NCBI GenBank assembly: GCA_018829565.1
Contig: JAHJTW010000204.1
Span: forward strand, 1-35,168
DNA: 35,168 nt
Direction of reading: 5' to 3'
Origin: a bacterium
GTDB lineage: Bacteria; Krumholzibacteriota; Krumholzibacteriia; LZORAL124-64-63
Shown here: piece by piece, positions 10,108-30,255 of the stretch
How the letters are laid out: every line of letters starts with the position of its first letter
How positions within the stretch are numbered: position 1 is the first letter of the stretch
Made by a program: the position numbers and the translations under genes
Notes under the pieces: generated by a model
Seen by the model: only the letters and a program-made list of their open reading frames with translations
Told to the model about the DNA's origin: nothing
Databases searched by the model: none

Positions 10108-11685
10108 TCATTTCTCCTGCTCGCCGGGCAGGGCTTGGACGGCAGGATCGCTCTGCGGGGGGTCGCCGGGCCTGAAATCGCCCGCCGGCAGGATTTCGCT
10201 GACGATCACCGGCAGGCCGGTCAGGGCGACGACCCCATCGTCGGGGATCCGCTCGAAGACGAAGGCGCCCCGAGCCGCGTCGACCACCCTCATCAGCAGG
10301 TCCGGGTGCTCCAGCGGCGAAAGTTCCAGCACCCCCGAACCTCCCGGGGCCCAGGCGACGATGATGTCCGGCCGGCCGTGGGACTCGATGAGGTAAGTCC
10401 CCTCCTCCAGCTTCACCACCCCCTTCAGGTCGGCAAGGATCGATCCCAGCAGGCAGTAGGCCCAGTAACCGCCCTTGGGCTGGAACTCCTGGTCGAAGAG
10501 AGGGACCTCGGTGTTGCCGTAAGTCGTACCCCCTCCCACCACGAACTCCCGCTCCACCATCCCGAACCAGAGGATGAAACGCACCCCCCTGGCCAGGGCG
10601 TCGAGATTCATGTCCAGGGCCGCCAGGAAGTGGCTGTCCGGGGTGACGCTGTCCTCGTAGGCCAGGTTCGGTCCCCCGCATTCCGCCGACACCAGCCCGG
10701 CCCCGGGCGCCGCCAGACGCACGCGTTCGATCCGGTGCTGGTTGAATTCCACAGGGCCGTAGAGGTGCATGTCGGCGACGTCGTAGCGGGCCTCGGCCAG
10801 CACCCGCTCCCGGACGGCCACGCTTTCCAGGATCGTGGGCGACTGGGCGCGCAGGCTGTCGAGGAAGACGATGTTGTCCGGAGAATAGGCGATCCGGGCG
10901 ACGTAACTTGCCATGCCGGAACTGAGAACCATGGCGTCCAGGGCGCCGGCGGGAATACCCCCGAGGATGACCGTCGCCCCGGGCCAGGCGGCCTTGGTCG
11001 CGGCATGGGAGGCGTTGAGGGTAGCGATCAGCTGGTCGATGTCCCCCGCCCATCCCCCGGTGGTGTGGTTCAGGGAGGGCCACTCGTTGATGAACTGGTA
11101 ATAGTCCACCGGGCGCAGCATTCCCGGAGCGTCCCCGACGCCGTCATGGTCGTACCGTTCGACGCAGGCGGAGACGAAATCCGCCCAGTCGGCCATGTCG
11201 GCGGGCACCCGGTTGGGCGAGGTGAACTCCGAGGGGAGGGTGCCCCATTCGGCATCGGTGGCGAAGGTCAGGAAGGCGTTCGCCCCTGATTCCTGGAGGT
11301 GCTGGATCTTGTTGTCCAGCCCGTCCCAGGCGAACTGGCCCCGGACGGGTTCCCGCTCGGCCCAGCTGACGTCCATGCGGACGATCCCCATCCCGCACTC
11401 CAGCACGGCATCGGCGACGGCGGGATCCGGCGCCGGGAAAGCCACCCCGAGTCGCGGATTGGGAACGATGTGGAGATTGCCCAGCAGCAGCCGACCATCC
11501 ACCTGGGCGGATTGCGGCAGCCATTCCAGGTGGATGGTTTTCCGGGGAGGTTCGTCGGCGAGGATGTCGGCGTTCCCCAAGGGGCCCGCGGACCACACCG
11601 CCGACCCGGGACAGCAGACCAGGAACAGACTCAACAGAAAGGGTACGACCCCGGGCAGGCCCTGGAATGGATGACGGTGGTCCAT
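10108..11685 (-). CDS. Secreted clan GH-A-like glycoside hydrolase, copy 1
   Basis: The 525-residue protein starts at the ATG at 11685 behind GGGGAGA. Residues about 14-33 form a signal peptide (VPFLLSLFLVCCPGSAVWSA). The mature protein looks like a TIM barrel: CGMGIVRMDVSWAEREP (97-113) resembles the second-strand region of GH-A enzymes, FINEWPS holds a candidate acid/base Glu201 after Asn200, and LVSAECGGPN gives a candidate nucleophile Glu335, 134 residues later. The C-terminal 120 residues look like a beta-sandwich. It is a clear paralogue of the gene at 11891-13450 with the same motifs and spacing. Clan GH-A enzymes cleave beta-glycosidic bonds by retention; the exact family and substrate are not assigned. 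It converges with the glycan operon, nine bases away. Confidence 0.78.
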   Translation of the reverse strand: MDHRHPFQGLPGVVPFLLSLFLVCCPGSAVWSAGPLGNADILADEPPRKTIHLEWLPQSAQVDGRLLLGNLHIVPNPRLGVAFPAPDPAVADAVLECGMGIVRMDVSWAEREPVRGQFAWDGLDNKIQHLQESGANAFLTFATDAEWGTLPSEFTSPNRVPADMADWADFVSACVERYDHDGVGDAPGMLRPVDYYQFINEWPSLNHTTGGWAGDIDQLIATLNASHAATKAAWPGATVILGGIPAGALDAMVLSSGMASYVARIAYSPDNIVFLDSLRAQSPTILESVAVRERVLAEARYDVADMHLYGPVEFNQHRIERVRLAAPGAGLVSAECGGPNLAYEDSVTPDSHFLAALDMNLDALARGVRFILWFGMVEREFVVGGGTTYGNTEVPLFDQEFQPKGGYWAYCLLGSILADLKGVVKLEEGTYLIESHGRPDIIVAWAPGGSGVLELSPLEHPDLLMRVVDAARGAFVFERIPDDGVVALTGLPVIVSEILPAGDFRPGDPPQSDPAVQALPGEQEK

Positions 11686-11890: not shown

Positions 11891-13450
11891 TCAGAACAGG
11901 ATGGGATGCTCGAAGTCGTCCAGGTGCGGCTGCAGCTGGGCTCCGAAATTCCCGGCCGGCAGCTCCTCGCTGACGATCACCGGCAGCGGTCCCAGCTCGA
12001 TGACGCCGTTCCCCGGGACCACCTCGACGTCGAAGGTCCCGTACTGGGCGTCCACCACGCGCATGAACATGTCGGGGTGGATGGTGTCGGGCAGCTGGAG
12101 CAGCTGGGTGTCGTTCTTCGACCAGGCCACGTAGACGTCCGGCCGGCCGGCCCGTTCGACCCTGAAGATGCCTTCACGCACCTTGGTGACGGTTTCCATG
12201 TCCGACAACACCGAGGCGAGCAGATAGTAGGCCCAGTAGCCTCCCTTGGGCTGGCGGTTCACGTCGAACAGCTGCAGCTGGGAGTTGCCGTAGGTCATGG
12301 TGCCCTCGCCCTCGATGTATTCACGCTCGAGCATCATGTACCACAGGATGAAGTCCACGCCGCGCGACAGGGCGTGGAGGTTCATCTCCAGCGCGGCCAG
12401 GAAGTGGTCCTCGTGGGTGATGTCGGCGTCGTAGGCCAGGTTCGGCCCGCCGCATTCGCCCGAGATCATCCCTGCCGACCCGATCAGCGGCTGCAGGCGA
12501 TTGATCCTGTACTCGTTGAACTGGACCGGCCCGTAAAGGTGCATGTCGACGACGTCGTAACGGGTCTGGGTCAGCACCCGCTCCCGCAACGCGACGCTCT
12601 CGAGGACCGAGGGATCCTGGGCGGATTGGAGGTCCAGGGTGAAGGAGGTGGTCGGTGTCCAGGCCGCGCGGGCGATGTAGTCGGCGATGCCCGAACTGAG
12701 GACCATGGAGTCCAGTCCGCCCACGGGGATGCCTCCGAGGACCACCTTGGCCTCCGGAAAGGCGCTCTTGACCGCATCATGGGATGCGTTGAGCGTGGCG
12801 ATCAACTGGGCCTCGTCGCCGCACCAGCCGCCGGCCTTGTTGTTCTCCGAGGGCCATTCGTTTATGAACTGGTAGTGGACCACCGGACGTTCGAGACCGT
12901 TGAGGTCGTCCACACCGTCTCCGTCGTAGCGCTCGGCGCAGGACCGCACGAAATCCTCCCAGTCCGCCAGGTTTGCCGGGACCCTGTTGGCGGCCGTCAG
13001 GCCGGAAGGCAGGGTGGCCCATGCCGCGTCGGTGGCGAAGGTCAGGAAGACGTCGATGCCCCGCCCCTGAAGGTGGCGGATCTTGTAATCCAGCCCGCCC
13101 CACTCGAACTGGTCCTGGGCGGGTTCCCGTTCGCTCCAGTTGACGTCGATCCGCGCCATGCCCATGCCGCAGGCGCTCATGGCGTCGTAGATCTCCAGGT
13201 GGGATCCGGGGAACGCCAACCCCAGGTGGGGGTTGGGCGCGATGATCAGGTCGCTCAGGTAGAGGCCGGCCTCCAGGACCTGGGCCTGGACTCCCCAGTC
13301 AAGGCGGACCACCTGAAGAGGGGTGGAATCCCCGGATCCGGCGTACTGTGCCCCGGCAGTGAGGGGAAGGAAGCCGACCAGGACCGACACGAGCCCCGCG
13401 AAGACCAGGGATCCTGGCAGTTTGTTCGGGATTTGTATGCGTCGAGGCAT
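11891..13450 (-). CDS. Secreted clan GH-A-like glycoside hydrolase, copy 2
   Basis: The 519-residue protein starts at the ATG at 13450 behind AAGGAT. A signal peptide covers residues 1-34 (LVFAGLVSVLVGFLPLTAGA, cleavage before QY). The core repeats copy 1 almost motif for motif: CGMGMARIDVNWSEREP (94-110), FINEWPS with Asn197-Glu198, and MISGECGGPNLAY with Glu332, again 134 residues apart. Shared blocks GVDFILWYMMLEREY and QPKGGYWAYYLLASVLSD run toward a beta-rich C-terminal part. By eye the two copies are roughly half identical, so the duplication is not recent. The acid/base and nucleophile roles are inferred from clan GH-A. It has its own terminator and a 434-base upstream region. A glycan substrate is likely; a role in processing the neighbouring glycan is speculative. 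Confidence 0.78.
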   Translation of the reverse strand: MPRRIQIPNKLPGSLVFAGLVSVLVGFLPLTAGAQYAGSGDSTPLQVVRLDWGVQAQVLEAGLYLSDLIIAPNPHLGLAFPGSHLEIYDAMSACGMGMARIDVNWSEREPAQDQFEWGGLDYKIRHLQGRGIDVFLTFATDAAWATLPSGLTAANRVPANLADWEDFVRSCAERYDGDGVDDLNGLERPVVHYQFINEWPSENNKAGGWCGDEAQLIATLNASHDAVKSAFPEAKVVLGGIPVGGLDSMVLSSGIADYIARAAWTPTTSFTLDLQSAQDPSVLESVALRERVLTQTRYDVVDMHLYGPVQFNEYRINRLQPLIGSAGMISGECGGPNLAYDADITHEDHFLAALEMNLHALSRGVDFILWYMMLEREYIEGEGTMTYGNSQLQLFDVNRQPKGGYWAYYLLASVLSDMETVTKVREGIFRVERAGRPDVYVAWSKNDTQLLQLPDTIHPDMFMRVVDAQYGTFDVEVVPGNGVIELGPLPVIVSEELPAGNFGAQLQPHLDDFEHPILF

Positions 13451-25075: not shown

Positions 25076-26509
25076 CTAGTTGGGGAGAACCTCCACCGCC
25101 TGCCAGGGGAACAGGGTGGCGTCCACGAGGATCAACCGGAATCCTTCGCCCGGCTCGGACAGCGACCCTGCCGCCACCGCGAAGGCCTTCAGGCCGGAGA
25201 CCAGGTTCAGGTCGAAGGAAGCGACCACGGGGTCGATGGTCCCGGCTCCGGTCACGCCGATGGTGAGGCTGCCGGGGTCCAGGGCCGTGCCGATGGGCGA
25301 GGACGATTCACCGAAGTCCAGGCCGCTGAACGGGTCGACCGGAGTGAAGGTCATCCCGTCATAGACCCCGACATCCACCGCGGGAGCGTCCGGGCTTGCG
25401 TGCACGACCCTGACCAGGGGATTCATGGTGTCGGCGAAGTACTCCTGGAGGGGCAGGATGGTGAATTCCTTCAGGGGATTGCTGCCGTACCCCGAAGCCA
25501 CCACCAGGTAGCGTTCGCCGGCCATCAGGTCGGGGGTTACCACCGTGCTCACCAGGGCGCCGCCCATGGAAAGGGAGACGTCCAGGGAGTAGATCGCGGG
25601 GGGCACCTGAACCGCCGGGGAGAGTTCGCCGAAGGACAATTCGCCCACCAGCTCGGCGTCGGTGCCCCCTACGTTGACGTCCACCGCCTGCGCATCCGGC
25701 GAGGCGTGCAGGACGAACAACACGGGATCCTGCTTGATCAGGCCGATGGTGCCGCCGGGGCCCACGGCCAGCAAGCCGAACCCGGACTCGTCACGCGGCA
25801 GCTCGCCGAGCAGACCGGTGGCGACGAGGAAGATCTCACCTTCCGGCAGTGCCGGGGTGGTCAGGCTGGTCACCTTGGCCAGAGGCGACGCCGACCAGAT
25901 CCCGACCGCCAGAGAGGTGCCCGCCGGCAGGGCCACGCCCTCGACTCCGGTGTCGGCAAAGCGGCCCAGGGAAGCGATTTCCGGTGTTCCGTCGTTGCCC
26001 ACGTCGACGGCCACGGCGGGGGCGTCGGCCGATCCGTGCACGATGCGCACGGCGGCGTTGCCCGCACCGGGGTCCGTGAAGGACTCGGGGAACAGCAGGA
26101 TCCGGAAAGCCTCGTCGGGGTCGTTGCTCGACAGCAAGCCCGCGGCCACGGCGGTGATCTTCGCATCGGCCGGCACCTCGATCTCTCCCGTCTCGAAGGC
26201 CGGTTCACTGGCTGCGGAGGCGCCCGCAGCCCTCAGCTGGATGTTGTAGGTTCCCGGATCGAGCTCGAGGTACTGGCTCGTCGCGGTGTAGGGGACGTTG
26301 GCCAGCAGGGGCGCGGCGACCCCCTCGGCGTAGACGTCAACCGGGCCGGCGTCGGGCGAAGCATGGACCACCCGCAGTAGCGCTCCGTCACCGAGCGCCG
26401 GACCGGTCAAGTTGGAAGTGTTCTCGTCGTCGTCGGAGCAGCCGGCCGCCATCAGGGCGAAGGCCAGCAGGACGGAAAGTCCCAGCAGCTTGAGGATGTT
26501 GTTGTTCAC
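25076..26509 (-). CDS. DUF4397-repeat lipoprotein
   Basis: The 477-residue lipoprotein starts at a GTG (26509) behind GGGAGAGAACC. A lipobox LMAAGC puts the lipidated cysteine at residue 24, and +2 Ser predicts outer-membrane delivery. The mature protein holds four DUF4397-type units, each opening with a variant of [LV]-x-V-[VL]-H-[AG]-S-x-D-A-x-x-V-x-V: RVVHASPDAGPVDVY (about 46-60), RIVHGSADAPAVAVDV, FVLHASPDAQAVDVNV and RVVHASPDAPAVDVGV. DUF4397 domains are beta-sandwiches of unknown function on surface proteins. The gene follows the fasciclin gene on the same strand, 93 bases downstream, with a hairpin between them, and the two share a 12-base leader (AGGGAGAGAACC). Joint control from the fasciclin promoter is likely but unproven. 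An adhesion or matrix role is guesswork. Confidence 0.9.
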   Translation of the reverse strand: MNNNILKLLGLSVLLAFALMAAGCSDDDENTSNLTGPALGDGALLRVVHASPDAGPVDVYAEGVAAPLLANVPYTATSQYLELDPGTYNIQLRAAGASAASEPAFETGEIEVPADAKITAVAAGLLSSNDPDEAFRILLFPESFTDPGAGNAAVRIVHGSADAPAVAVDVGNDGTPEIASLGRFADTGVEGVALPAGTSLAVGIWSASPLAKVTSLTTPALPEGEIFLVATGLLGELPRDESGFGLLAVGPGGTIGLIKQDPVLFVLHASPDAQAVDVNVGGTDAELVGELSFGELSPAVQVPPAIYSLDVSLSMGGALVSTVVTPDLMAGERYLVVASGYGSNPLKEFTILPLQEYFADTMNPLVRVVHASPDAPAVDVGVYDGMTFTPVDPFSGLDFGESSSPIGTALDPGSLTIGVTGAGTIDPVVASFDLNLVSGLKAFAVAAGSLSEPGEGFRLILVDATLFPWQAVEVLPN

Positions 26510-26527
26510 GGTTCTCTCCCTTTTTCC

Positions 26528-26551
26528 GCCCGGCGCCCGTGGACGCCGGGC
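26528..26551 (-). terminator. Hairpin between fasciclin and DUF4397 genes
   Basis: GCCCGGCG (26528-26535) pairs perfectly with CGCCGGGC (26544-26551) around an eight-base loop, 19 bases before the DUF4397 start. It could attenuate read-through from the fasciclin gene or stabilise an mRNA end. No T-run follows. Confidence 0.4.
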
Positions 26552-26602
26552 CGTTTATCAAAACCGGGACTTCCCGGATGTGTCCTCAGTCGGATCCGAT
26601 GC

Positions 26603-27142
26603 CTACAGGTTCTCGGGAATCAGCACGGTGTCGATCACGTGGATCACGCCGTTGGCGGCCCGGACATCGGCCTTGATCACGTTGGAGCCGTTGATCTTCA
26701 CGCCGTCCCTGGCGTCGATGGCCACGCGGGCCCCGTTGAGGGTCTCGGCGCCCTCCAGCTTCACCACGTCCGCGGCCATCACGCTGCCGCTGACCACGTG
26801 GTACAGCAGGACCTTCTTCAGGGCCTCGGGATTGGCCAGCAGGCTCTCGACCGTGCCCTCGGGCAGCTTGGCGAAGGCCTCGTCGGTGGGCGCGAACACA
26901 GTGAAGGGGCCATCGCCGGCCAGGGCCTCCTCCAGCCCGGCGGCCTTGACCGCTGCGACCAGGGTGGTGAACCCGGCCTCTTCGGCCAGGGGCAGGATGG
27001 CCTTGGCGCCGGCCGCCGGCGCTTCCACGGAAGCCTGGGTGGCCTTGGCGTCCCCGCTGCCGCAGTTGCCGGCCAGGGCCAGGGCGGGGATCATGGTCAG
27101 GACGAGCACGGTGGCCGGAAGCAGGTTTTCTCTGGTCTTCAT
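26603..27142 (-). CDS. Secreted fasciclin-domain protein
   Basis: The 179-residue protein starts at the ATG at 27142 behind GGGAGAGAACC; the frame is open upstream to 27199 without a ribosome site. Residues 1-24 are a signal peptide ([17 protein letters not shown]). Cys27 follows but the context LAGNC is not a lipobox. A single fasciclin (FAS1/beta-Ig-h3) domain fills residues about 52-179: [19 protein letters not shown], the H1 box [23 protein letters not shown], and the closing H2-like [13 protein letters not shown]. Single-domain FAS1 proteins are secreted and linked to adhesion or ligand binding. It is preceded by the strongest consensus promoter in the window, whose -35 lies within the putative binding sites of the neighbouring CarH-like regulator, so light- or B12-dependent control is inferred. 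Confidence 0.94.
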
Positions 27143-27238
27143 GGTTCTCTCCCTCGTTATCGATGTCCAGGCCCCCAGGGGCCGTTTCGGCGGATTCATC
27201 TATGGTCAAACCGGCTTTCGTTTCGGTCCGGTCTGAGC

Positions 27239-27267
27239 ATGATAATCAAACGTACATCTTTTGTCAA
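27239..27267 (-). promoter_or_regulatory. Near-consensus promoter of the fasciclin gene
   Basis: On the minus strand TTGACA (27262-27267) is followed after exactly 17 bases by TATCAT (27239-27244). The predicted start lies about 90 bases before the fasciclin ATG. A promoter this strong usually needs a repressor, and the ACAT repeat array overlaps its -35 box. Confidence 0.75.
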
Positions 27268-27299
27268 CATTTTTCCTATACATTTTTTATACATTTTTT
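27251..27299 (-). repeat. Array of ACATTTTT-type repeats, putative CarH-like operator
   Basis: On the plus strand four units with an ACAT core start at 27254, 27267, 27280 and 27291 (spacings 13, 13 and 11). The last two are perfect 11-base tandem copies, TATACATTTTT (27277-27287 and 27288-27298). On the transcribed minus strand they read AAAAATGTATA. The second unit contains the -35 TTGACA. CarH/LitR operators are known as short direct repeats around a TnnACA or TATACA core overlapping a -35 element (from memory), so this is the likely site for the regulator at 27345-28292. Confidence 0.6.
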
Positions 27300-27344
27300 C
27301 CTGGCAGCCAAAACCGCTGGACACGGTCCAGGGGAGAAGAGGGC

Positions 27345-28292
27345 CTAGTGGGATAGAATGTGGTTCAGGGCGAGATCGAAGTCCCCGGGCCCGTCCACCC
27401 GGATGGCCCCGGCCTTGTCGAGGATCTCCTGGTAGCTCCCGGCCGCCCGTCCCCCCACGATGACGGGGAAGTCCGGGTCCAGCAGGCGCCGCAGCAGGAG
27501 GATCTGCTCGCCGATTCCCGCATCGCCCGGGGGATAGACGATGCTGAGGAACAGGGCCCGCGCGGTCCGGAGCCGGATCCCGCCCGCGATCTCCTCGGCC
27601 GGCAGGTTGGGCCCCATGTACAGCACGTCCCAGCCCACCTCCAGGGCGTGGGAGGTGGCCAGCAGCGCGCCCATTTCGTGGAGGTCCCCGCTGGGAGTGG
27701 CGACGGCCAGCAACGGGCTTCCGTCGGCCACGGTCTGGCGGGCGTTGAGGGAGGACAGGAAGGTCTTCACGATGGCCGTGGCCATGTGCTCCTGGGCCAC
27801 CCGGAGGGTCCCCTCCCGCCAGCGCTCACCGATCTGGATCATCAGGGGCTGGATCAGCCCCCTTCGCAGGACGGGAATGGCCAGGTCGACCGACGCCCGC
27901 TCCAGGACCGATTCCAGGCGGTGTTGGTCCATGGCCTGGACGGCGTCCAGGGCCTCGGATAGGTAGGTCCGGGGATCGGCGGTCCCGGTCCGGCCGGAGG
28001 GAGCGGGGGCCGGCGCGGGGGCGGCCTCCGCCGCCAGCGTCCTCAACTCGGCCGGAGGACGTCCCACCACATCGCCGATCCGGTAACCGTTGTCCGTCAG
28101 GATCCGCAGCAAGGTCAGGCGCTCGACGTCCTCGTCGGTGTAAAGCCGCCGGCCGGTATCGGTGCGGCTCGGCTCAACCACCTGGTATCGCCGTTCCCAG
28201 GCCCGGAGCAGGAGCTGGGTCAATCCCGTCCTTCGGGAAACGACCGCGATGCTGTGTCGCGGAGTGGTTCTGCTGGCGTCCGGCTGCGGCAT
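27345..28292 (-). CDS. MerR-type transcription factor with cobalamin-binding photosensor domain (CarH/LitR-like)
   Basis: The 315-residue protein is best started at the ATG at 28292 (GAAGGGG six bases upstream); an ATG at 28352 would add 20 residues without a ribosome site. Residues 13-75 are a MerR winged helix (IAVVSRRTGL, LRAWERRYQVVEPSRT, GRRLYTDEDVERL). After an Ala/Pro linker, a four-helix cap domain carries the W-x9-EH signature (Trp158, Glu168, His169) typical of adenosylcobalamin photoreceptors of the CarH class. The Rossmann B12 domain has the cobalt-ligand motif DLHEMG (His205) and YMGPNLPAEEI. Known CarH proteins repress DNA in the dark as AdoCbl-bound tetramers and release it on light. 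The neighbours SRPBCC and DUF523-DUF1722 are usual LitR-cluster companions. Likely targets are its own divergent promoter region and the fasciclin promoter. Confidence 0.88.
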   Translation of the reverse strand: MPQPDASRTTPRHSIAVVSRRTGLTQLLLRAWERRYQVVEPSRTDTGRRLYTDEDVERLTLLRILTDNGYRIGDVVGRPPAELRTLAAEAAPAPAPAPSGRTGTADPRTYLSEALDAVQAMDQHRLESVLERASVDLAIPVLRRGLIQPLMIQIGERWREGTLRVAQEHMATAIVKTFLSSLNARQTVADGSPLLAVATPSGDLHEMGALLATSHALEVGWDVLYMGPNLPAEEIAGGIRLRTARALFLSIVYPPGDAGIGEQILLLRRLLDPDFPVIVGGRAAGSYQEILDKAGAIRVDGPGDFDLALNHILSH

Positions 28293-28323
28293 GGTTACCC
28301 CTTCGGGATGGCAGGTTTCTGGC

Positions 28324-28359
28324 TGGACACAACCTAGAATCGTGTATAACATTTGTCCA
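28324..28359. promoter_or_regulatory. Overlapping divergent promoters between regulator and SRPBCC genes
   Basis: For the regulator (minus), TGGACA (28354-28359), 17 bases, TAGGTT (28331-28336). For the SRPBCC gene (plus), TGGACA (28324-28329), 15 bases, TATAAC (28345-28350). The two would occupy the same DNA, so polymerase binding would be mutually exclusive. A GTATAACATTTG resembles one unit of the operator array at 27251-27299. The short plus-strand spacer makes that half uncertain. Confidence 0.35.
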
Positions 28360-28409
28360 GGAAAAATTCAGACATTGTCACATCTTGCCCGGACGAAGGG
28401 ATCCTGAAA

Positions 28410-28886
28410 GTGGAAATCCGGAATCTGGTCGTGGAACAGCTCGTCCCCCGCCCCCGCGACGAGGTCTTCGCTTTCTTCGACCGCCCCGAGAACCTCGTCC
28501 GCATCACTCCCCGGTGGCTGGATTTCCGGATCCTGACGCCCCAGCCCCTCACCATGAAGGAAGGGGCCGTCATCGACTACCTGATCCGGCTGGGTCCCCT
28601 GCCGACCCGCTGGCGATCGATCATCTCGGTCTACGATCCGCCCCATCGATTCGTGGACGAACAGCTCATGGGGCCTTACAGTTTCTGGCACCACTCTCAC
28701 GAGTTCGCCCAGACTTCCGGGGGCACCCTGATCCGCGACCACGTGAGGTATCTCCTGCCCTTCGGCATCCTGGGGGACGTCGCCCACGCCCTGATCGTCA
28801 AGCGGCAACTCGAGGGGATCTTCGCCCACCGCCGGCAGGTGATCGACAGGATGTTCGGCCCGACCATCGAGGAGGAGCGGCCATGA
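28410..28886 (+). CDS. SRPBCC (START/Bet v 1-like) ligand-binding protein
   Basis: I start this 158-residue protein at the GTG at 28410, with AAGGG nine bases before; a TTG at 28353 is in frame but overlaps the promoter region. The protein opens with beta strand IRNLVVEQLVPRPRDEVFAF, followed by FDRPENLVRITP, the helix-grip start seen in polyketide cyclase/SRPBCC proteins, then LTMKEGAVIDYLIRL, RWRSIISVYDPPHRFVDEQL and GGTLIRDHVRYLLPFG, and a long C-terminal helix (about 125-150). The fold binds hydrophobic ligands; the ligand is not known. Such genes often sit beside LitR-type regulators and photolyases. It overlaps the next gene by four bases (ATGA), so the two are translationally coupled. 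Confidence 0.85.
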   Translation: MEIRNLVVEQLVPRPRDEVFAFFDRPENLVRITPRWLDFRILTPQPLTMKEGAVIDYLIRLGPLPTRWRSIISVYDPPHRFVDEQLMGPYSFWHHSHEFAQTSGGTLIRDHVRYLLPFGILGDVAHALIVKRQLEGIFAHRRQVIDRMFGPTIEEERP

Positions 28887-29836
28887 CGACGAGTGAGATC
28901 CGGATCGGCGTCAGCAGCTGCCTGCTCGGGCAGGAAGTCCGGTACGACGGCGGGCACAAGCACTACAGGTACGCCACCGACGTGCTGGCCGAGTACTTCA
29001 CCCTGGTGCCCGTGTGCCCCGAGGTCGAGGTGGGGATGGCCATCCCCCGCGAGACCGTCCGCCTGCAGGGCGACCCCGCGGCGCCGCGCATGGTGGCCCC
29101 CAGATCGGGCGAGGACTGGACCGACCGCATGAACGCCTGGTCCCGCAAGCGCACCCGGGAACTCGCCGCCGAGGATCTGTGCGGCTACCTCTTCAAGAAG
29201 AATTCGCCCTCCTGCGGGGTGTTCCGCCTGAAGGTCTACCAGGACAAGGGGATGCCCGACCACGGGGGCCGCGGCCTGTTCGCCGCCGCCTTCATCGCCG
29301 CCAATCCCCTGCTTCCGGTCGAGGAGGAGGGCCGCCTGAGCGACCCCCACCTGCGCGAGAACTTCATCGAAAGGGTGTTCGCCTACCATCGCCTGAAGGC
29401 CCTGTTCACGGGCCGCTGGAAGCGGGGCGACGTCGTGGCCTTCCACAGCAGGGAGAAGTACCTGCTCATGGCCCACAGCCCGCGGCACTACAAGGAACTG
29501 GGGCAACTGGTGGCCGCGGTGGCGGACCACGGGCCGGCCGCCTTCCGCGACCGGTACATGGAGCTGTTCATGCAGGGCCTGGAAGTCAAGGCCACCACCC
29601 GCAGGCACGTCAACGCGCTGCTGCACGTGGCGGGACATCTGCGGGGGACCATCTCGGACCCCGAGCAGAAGCGGGTGATCGCGGTCATCGAGGAATACGG
29701 CAAGGGCCTGGTGCCGCTGGTGGTCCCCATGACCCTGCTGAAGCATTACATCGAACTGCACGACCTGCCTTACGTGGGGGCCCAATCCTATCTCGCCCCT
29801 CACCCCAAGGAGCTCATGCTGCGCAACCACGTGTAG
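28883..29836 (+). CDS. DUF523-DUF1722 fusion protein (YbgA-like C-terminus)
   Basis: The 317-residue protein begins in the ATGA overlap with the SRPBCC gene, behind GGAGGAG. Residues about 6-150 are DUF523: IGVSSCLLGQEVRYDGGHK, VPVCPEVEVGM, GYLFKKNSPSCGVFRLKVY, with conserved cysteines at about 12, 49, 103 and 114 that may bind a metal or an iron-sulfur cluster. Residues about 190-310 are DUF1722: FHSREKYLLMAHSPRHYKEL, VNALLHVAGHLRG, TLLKHYIELHDLPYVGAQSY. This fusion is common next to photolyases and light-responsive MerR regulators and is thought to belong to light/UV stress responses. The reaction is unknown. No photolyase gene follows here. The ribosome site, length and domain order are normal. 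Confidence 0.92.
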   Translation: MTTSEIRIGVSSCLLGQEVRYDGGHKHYRYATDVLAEYFTLVPVCPEVEVGMAIPRETVRLQGDPAAPRMVAPRSGEDWTDRMNAWSRKRTRELAAEDLCGYLFKKNSPSCGVFRLKVYQDKGMPDHGGRGLFAAAFIAANPLLPVEEEGRLSDPHLRENFIERVFAYHRLKALFTGRWKRGDVVAFHSREKYLLMAHSPRHYKELGQLVAAVADHGPAAFRDRYMELFMQGLEVKATTRRHVNALLHVAGHLRGTISDPEQKRVIAVIEEYGKGLVPLVVPMTLLKHYIELHDLPYVGAQSYLAPHPKELMLRNHV

Positions 29837-29928: not shown

Positions 29929-30255
29929 ATGGATTTCCTGTTCGACCTCTGGCTGCCGATCGTCGTTTCGGCCGTCCTGGTCTTCATCACCAGTTCGATC
30001 TTCCACATGGCCCTGCCCATCCACAAGAGCGACTACCGGAAGGTGGGGGACGAGGCGGCGTTCCTGGCCGCGATGCGCGCCGCCGGCGTGGGCCCCGGCC
30101 ACTACATGTTCCCCATGTGCTCGTCCATGAAGGACATGAACTCTCCGGAGATGGCCGAGAAGTACCGTCAGGGGCCGGTGGGGTTCATGACCATCCTGCC
30201 CAGCGCCCCGGTGGCCCTGGGCAAGAGCCCTGGCCACGTCTCGGTATGGCACTGA
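29929..30255 (+). pseudogene. Short membrane protein, probably C-terminally truncated
   Basis: A 108-residue frame starts at the ATG at 29929 behind GAGG. It has one N-terminal membrane helix (LPIVVSAVLVFITSSIFHMAL), then SDYRKVGDEAAFLAAMRAAG, PGHYMFPMCSSMKDMNSPEM and GPVGFMTILPSAPVALGKS. I recall this arrangement from a widespread family of small hypothetical proteins of about 150-160 residues in which the GP-x-GK block is followed by two or three further helices. Here translation ends after eleven unlike residues (PGHVSVWH). No helix-coding continuation is visible in the other frames of 30230-30385, so the end seems lost by deletion or rearrangement rather than by a single frameshift. It may be a dead gene or a shortened functional one. 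Function unknown. Confidence 0.6.

Follow-up and report, generated by a model that had tools for sequence, protein, structure and literature searches.

A candidate CarH-type, light-derepressed regulon of fasciclin, DUF4397, and RudS genes rather than carotenoid genes

CarH is a known switch for carotenoid genes and an optogenetic tool. In the contig analysed here (the window, 35,168 nt), a gene for a MerR protein with cobalamin-binding domains adjoins a fasciclin gene, and the region between them (27239–27299) contains short repeats overlapping a promoter. The question is whether these repeats form an operator for the neighbouring regulator, and if so what is controlled and by what signal. The 11-mer ATACATTTTTT is present twice, identical and in tandem (27278–27288 and 27289–27299, plus strand), and ACAT cores start at 27254, 27267, 27280, and 27291, with spacings of 13, 13, and 11 bp rather than uniformly 11. 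On the minus strand, from 27293 to 27239, the region reads TGTATA-AAAAA-TGTATA-GGAAAAATG-TTGACA-AAAGA-TGTACG-TTTGAT-TATCAT. The fasciclin promoter within it, TTGACA (27267–27262), 17 bp, and TATCAT (27244–27239), has 11 of 12 consensus bases and is close to the sigma-70 consensus; apart from it, the promoter scan found one promoter-like site in 26400–28700, with 0.2 expected from shuffles. The repeats, the promoter, and the gene order described in the original prediction are thus all present in the sequence. The region is just 21% GC in a window of 66% GC, so chance had to be ruled out as the source of the repeats by comparing relatives.

The regulator (27345–28292, minus strand, 315 aa; MerR_1, B12-binding_2, and B12-binding in Pfam) combines an HTH (PF13411, E=3e-16), a four-helix B12-binding_2 domain, and a Rossmann B12-binding domain. 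Its best solved relative is Thermus thermophilus CarH (TtCarH; 5c8d, E=2.7e-24), an unambiguous match with which its HTH motif, LRAWERRY..RTDTGRRLY, aligns. The AdoCbl-contact motif Wx9EH is intact (residues 158–169) and kept in nearly all relatives. A regular expression for the B12 motif (D/ExHx2G-x41-SxT/V-x22-27-GG) matches as DxHxxG-x41-SxV-x27-GG, with exact spacing, at residues 203–281, and all four motifs of the light-response signature (GxxW, EH, GxxH, and GxxxP) are found. The AdoCbl and light motifs are largely conserved in the clade, and the genome encodes an ATP:cobalamin adenosyltransferase. The protein's residues include every sequence mark published for AdoCbl photoreceptors; that it binds B12 and responds to light is inferred. 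The earlier description of a cobalamin-binding MerR protein beside the fasciclin promoter is supported by these marks and by the Pfam matches to B12 domains. The features of CarH and class I LitR proteins that are met are the MerR HTH, the four-helix AdoCbl domain, the B12 motif, the light signature, and the operator. The His132 equivalent, a residue not universal in the group, is instead Arg, at a position that varies across the clade and among photoreceptors. Nor does the protein lack a Rossmann domain as class II LitR does (PF02310 is present). In two genomes outside the class, G246 and G247 (L166, L167, L174–L177), there are three regulator paralogues each, some with EQ or ER for EH.

The regulator's own promoter has a second putative operator, TGGACA-AATGT-TATACA, two 11-bp TnnACA repeats at 28343–28359 (minus strand) that are kept in nearly all relatives. 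The first repeat is also the merR -35, with a -10 of TAGGTT at 28336–28331, and nowhere else does the genome match TNGACAN5TNTACA exactly. Across the class the merR promoter has the form TNGACA-N5-TNNACA with the first repeat as -35, as TGGACA-N5-TATACA in the family and TTGACA-N5-TGGACA or TAGACA further out. In both unit and 11-bp period, these TnnACA repeats match published CarH operators (nnnnTnnACAn; PMC9304148). Tandem 11-bp repeats overlapping a -35 are therefore found at both the merR (TGGACA-N5-TATACA) and fasciclin (TTGACA-N5-TGTACG) promoters. The merR operator also overlaps the -10 of a divergent plus-strand promoter (TGGACA-N17-TAACAT, 28324–28352, from the promoter scan), so that one site could control both directions. 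Downstream of the latter are genes for an SRPBCC/Polyketide_cyc protein (28410–28886, plus strand, PF03364) and a RudS-type protein (28883–29836, plus strand), in which TudS/DUF523 and DUF1722 (PF04463 and PF08349) are fused in one protein, the membership feature of RudS. The regulatory unit proposed earlier holds on its fasciclin side, but was too small, since merR and the divergent SRPBCC-RudS operon share this second operator. RudS is followed by a 107-aa ORF (29932–30255, plus strand) whose N-terminus is membrane-like and which matches no Pfam family.

On the fasciclin side, the putative targets are a 179-aa fasciclin-domain protein (26603–27142, minus strand; PF02469, E=9e-40), whose N-terminus resembles a signal peptide, and after it a DUF4397 protein with three repeats (25076–26509, minus strand; PF14344, E=3e-50), whose N-terminus resembles a lipoprotein signal (MAAGC). 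Their adjacency is kept in relatives. Elsewhere in the window, two adjacent, visibly similar secreted proteins (10108–11685 and 11891–13450, minus strand) appear to be a tandem duplication. An output other than carotenoid genes had been predicted, and this agrees with the genome, 89% complete, in which no match to the SQS_PSY (phytoene/squalene synthase) family was detectable; carotenoid-gene control, typical of CarH though not defining, is accordingly not met. Fasciclin is a member of the singlet-oxygen/photo-oxidative regulon in Rhodobacter sphaeroides (PMC7074977), and an Azospirillum fasciclin reportedly acts in photo-oxidative stress and flocculation (cited in PMC10949492). RudS fusions are tRNA 4-thiouridine desulfidases, which strip 4-thiouridine from tRNA, and occur in LitR-controlled light operons (PMC11417400). 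Among relatives, a DNA photolyase and a DUF2867-containing SDR adjoin the regulator in one member of the class (L125:3047-6096, G046). A gene of the CbiX (cobalt chelatase) family is transcribed divergently from the regulator in L128 (7827–8387), with a repeat pair ahead of it, and lies directly 3' of fasciclin in L131 (5359–6431), possibly a link to cobalamin supply.

Light as the signal is an inference. The regulator might bind the operator as a repressor responsive to B12 or oxidative stress, with cobalamin availability or redox/oxygen as its signal. This is unlikely. The Arg at position 132, and the variability of that position across the clade, leave room for it: in TtCarH, His132 forms the bis-His light state, and light leaves an H132A variant mostly tetrameric (PMC10442372). 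The two CbiX genes beside the regulator or fasciclin hint at a cobalamin connection, and CarH integrates both light and oxygen (PMC10442372). However, the confirmed photoreceptor CtMerR likewise carries Arg in place of His132 and still responds to light, with a different photoproduct (PMC11796333). Against a non-light signal are the presence of all four published light-signature motifs and the light or near-UV functions of the neighbours. These are RudS here and in relatives, and in one genome (L123:7614-11118, G050) a photolyase with a DUF2867 SDR after it, transcribed away from the regulator and preceded by a TTGACA-N5-TAGACA pair.

The repeats themselves could be compared in relatives, with regulator orthologues in 23 of the 80 class genomes. 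Ten family members have a fasciclin-type gene directly 3' of the regulator (in L015/G023 with only a partial fasciclin match), often with DUF4397 behind it. Ten related promoters were set against that of the window, giving 11 promoters downstream of a regulator (10 fasciclin-type, one DUF4397) in an alignment anchored on the -35. The consensus is TGTAYA-N5/6-TGTAYA-N8/9-TTGACA-N5-TATACA-N5/6-TAnnnT, with 14–15 bp from the second TGTAYA half-site to TTGACA in the 11 aligned promoters. The upstream pair scored 102/110, compared with 58.4 +/- 3.7 in dinucleotide shuffles, and the spacer site 40/55, compared with 16.5 +/- 3.7; neither score was reached in 2000 shuffles. Identity in the flanks is near random at 22–34% (about 25% away from the promoter). 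The nine perfect TGTANA-N5/6-TGTANA pairs in the window and 20 related neighbourhoods are all in fasciclin or merR promoter regions. Lack of conservation of the repeats in relatives keeping both genes had been set beforehand as a result that would refute the original prediction, and the footprint survived this test. It was not seen in G052/L025, G049, or G045 and is thus weaker in some members, and the G040/L020 promoter has no spacer site. In two family members (L117:4986-5170 and L118:2590-2770), fasciclin and a DUF2867-SDR are divergent around a common TGTATA-N5-TGTACA pair.

The alignment also changes how the site is best read. Four ACAT repeats had been proposed as the operator. The two upstream cores are conserved; the third (27267) is not, the conserved element at that position being the -35, and the fourth falls within the spacer half-site, so the register was partly wrong. 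A one-register ACAT array at 13, 13, and 11 bp was therefore rejected, the ACAT at 27267 being incidental. Instead, the predicted fasciclin operator is a set of two reverse-oriented and two forward half-sites, all on the minus strand. These are r1, TGTATA at 27288–27293 (TATACA, that is TnnACA, on the plus strand), at a fixed distance from the -35 that is kept in relatives; r2, TGTATA at 27277–27282, 11 bp from r1 and also conserved; f1, the -35 TTGACA itself (27262–27267), which doubles as a TnnACA site; and f2, TGTACG at 27251–27256, which lies 11 bp beyond f1 within the spacer and is TATACA in relatives. The -10, TATCAT (27239–27244, promoter scan), follows. Read forward, the upstream pair would fall 3–4 bp out of the 11-bp register set by the -35 in all relatives, and it is therefore taken as reverse-oriented. 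Because TGTACA is palindromic, half-site orientation is only inferred and cannot be proved from sequence. If the inferred orientations are correct, the reverse-then-forward order points to two bound pairs arranged back to back.

UP elements are typically AT-rich sequence upstream of the -35, and in a 21% GC region within a 66% GC window the repeats might be no more than such an element or A-tract promoter, giving strong constitutive fasciclin expression, with TGTATA arising from composition. This is very improbable. Relatives keep the G of TGTA and the 11-bp period at a fixed distance where the surrounding A/T tracts vary, the shuffles that never attained the footprint score were of the same AT-rich 40-mers, and the forward pair is common to merR promoters. 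The pair is also missing upstream of fasciclin in regulator-less genomes and of the source genome's second, unlinked fasciclin gene; with no operator seen upstream, the latter was rejected as a target.

Within the 4.39-Mb source genome, the single match to ATGTAYN5ATGTAY is the TGTATA pair of the fasciclin promoter. In 38 family genomes there are 12 exact matches to TKGACAN5TATACA, nine of them at a merR or fasciclin promoter in a genome with the regulator; the other three are in genomes without the regulator, and a reversed control also gives three. Of 19 genomes with the regulator, 15 have a repeat pair scoring at least 7/8 upstream of fasciclin, in some cases with regulator and fasciclin unlinked; none of eight regulator-less ones does (Fisher P = 0.0002). 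Two of the 19 scores come from other extractions (G028 from the -35-anchored alignment, G021 from its linked fasciclin), and random 220-bp windows from the same neighbourhoods score at least 7/8 in 7.7% of cases. A wider, genome-wide regulon found no support: allowing one mismatch, TNGACAN5TNTACA gives 21 matches and its reversed control 34, so that a site carries meaning only if it is exact or supported by its locus. The sole photolyase found in the source genome was considered as a target and rejected, with no such repeats in its upstream region. Recognition by some other transcription factor rather than the adjacent MerR protein is the least probable alternative of all, for although there are no binding data for the regulator and the upstream pair runs opposite to the known CarH arrays, the half-site is that published for CarH/LitR (TnnACA; T(G/A)TACA..TGTA(C/T)A in class II LitR, PMC9758184), occurs at the regulator's own promoter, and tracks the regulator's presence.

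The arrangement is not confined to the class. In a second class (L028, L170, and L172) and in a Gemmatimonadaceae contig (L039), the regulator gene and fasciclin, or an operon that includes fasciclin, are transcribed divergently, and the promoters between them carry TnnACA repeat pairs. This recurrence of both linkage and repeats implies that the linkage is old or has been repeatedly selected. In L039 (5700–6000), a gene for a short protein, DUF378-like by eye, stands between the divergent operator and fasciclin.

In the absence of binding, spectroscopic, or expression data, the reading considered probable is that a non-carotenoid regulon (fasciclin, DUF4397, and RudS) is under CarH-type control and derepressed by light. 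The operators, promoters, their conservation, the dependence of the motif on regulator presence, and the photoreceptor residues were observed directly. In the proposed mechanism, the MerR protein at 27345–28292 would be both repressor and photoreceptor. In the dark, AdoCbl-loaded regulator would occupy two operators, the four-half-site array over the fasciclin promoter (27251–27293) and the two-repeat site at the merR promoter (28343–28359) overlapping the divergent SRPBCC-RudS promoter, covering the -35 elements and so excluding RNA polymerase. Light would cleave the Co-C bond and the regulator would release the DNA, allowing expression of fasciclin and DUF4397, merR, and SRPBCC and RudS, a response to light or near-UV without carotenoid genes. 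Binding by the regulator, AdoCbl as ligand, light as signal, and dark repression are inferences only, as is a surface or aggregation role for the output.

The closest known systems are the CarH class I LitR proteins of T. thermophilus, Bacillus megaterium, and Myxococcales, with the same domain order, Wx9EH, and B12 motif, 11-bp TnnACA repeats with the -35 as one of them, and an operator at the regulator's own promoter. Differences are the Arg in place of the His132 of TtCarH, shared along with the light-signature motifs by the SignatureFinder photoreceptor CtMerR; the fasciclin/DUF4397 and RudS targets in place of carotenoid genes; and the additional reverse TGTAYA pair 14–15 bp upstream of the -35 pair, opposite in orientation to the one-directional direct repeats of published CarH arrays. 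Class II LitR systems (Pseudomonas putida PplR1 and P. mendocina PmlR2) are similar in having TGTAYA/TRTACA half-sites in both orientations at promoters and a regulon of RudS and photolyase rather than carotenoid genes. However, they lack the Rossmann B12 domain, where both B12 domains are intact here; PmlR2 answers to a short LOV protein; and their sites are T(G/A)TACA-N12-TGTA(C/T)A rather than r-11-r-(14/15)-f-11-f. Fasciclin is also under a light/singlet-oxygen response in the RpoE-ChrR regulons of R. sphaeroides (RSP_1409) and Azospirillum brasilense, but through an ECF sigma factor rather than a direct B12-type repressor. No co-mention of fasciclin with a LitR photoreceptor was found in the literature searched, and those of fasciclin with CarH were in plant or animal papers only.

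The broader proposal, somewhat favoured but held less firmly, is of a cross-phylum clade of CarH-type B12 photoreceptors whose core output is a fasciclin surface module plus RudS rather than carotenoid genes, acting through a divergent two-pair operator (reverse TGTAYA and forward TnnACA) undescribed for CarH. To our knowledge, the bacteria concerned are not known for light responses. The operator, with two pairs in opposite orientation, is defined well enough to be directly testable. If the proposal is correct, a CarH-type circuit on fasciclin, beside a tRNA 4-thiouridine desulfidase, would widen the purpose of B12 photoreception, and B12 would let light act directly as a switch for bacterial surface or aggregation proteins.
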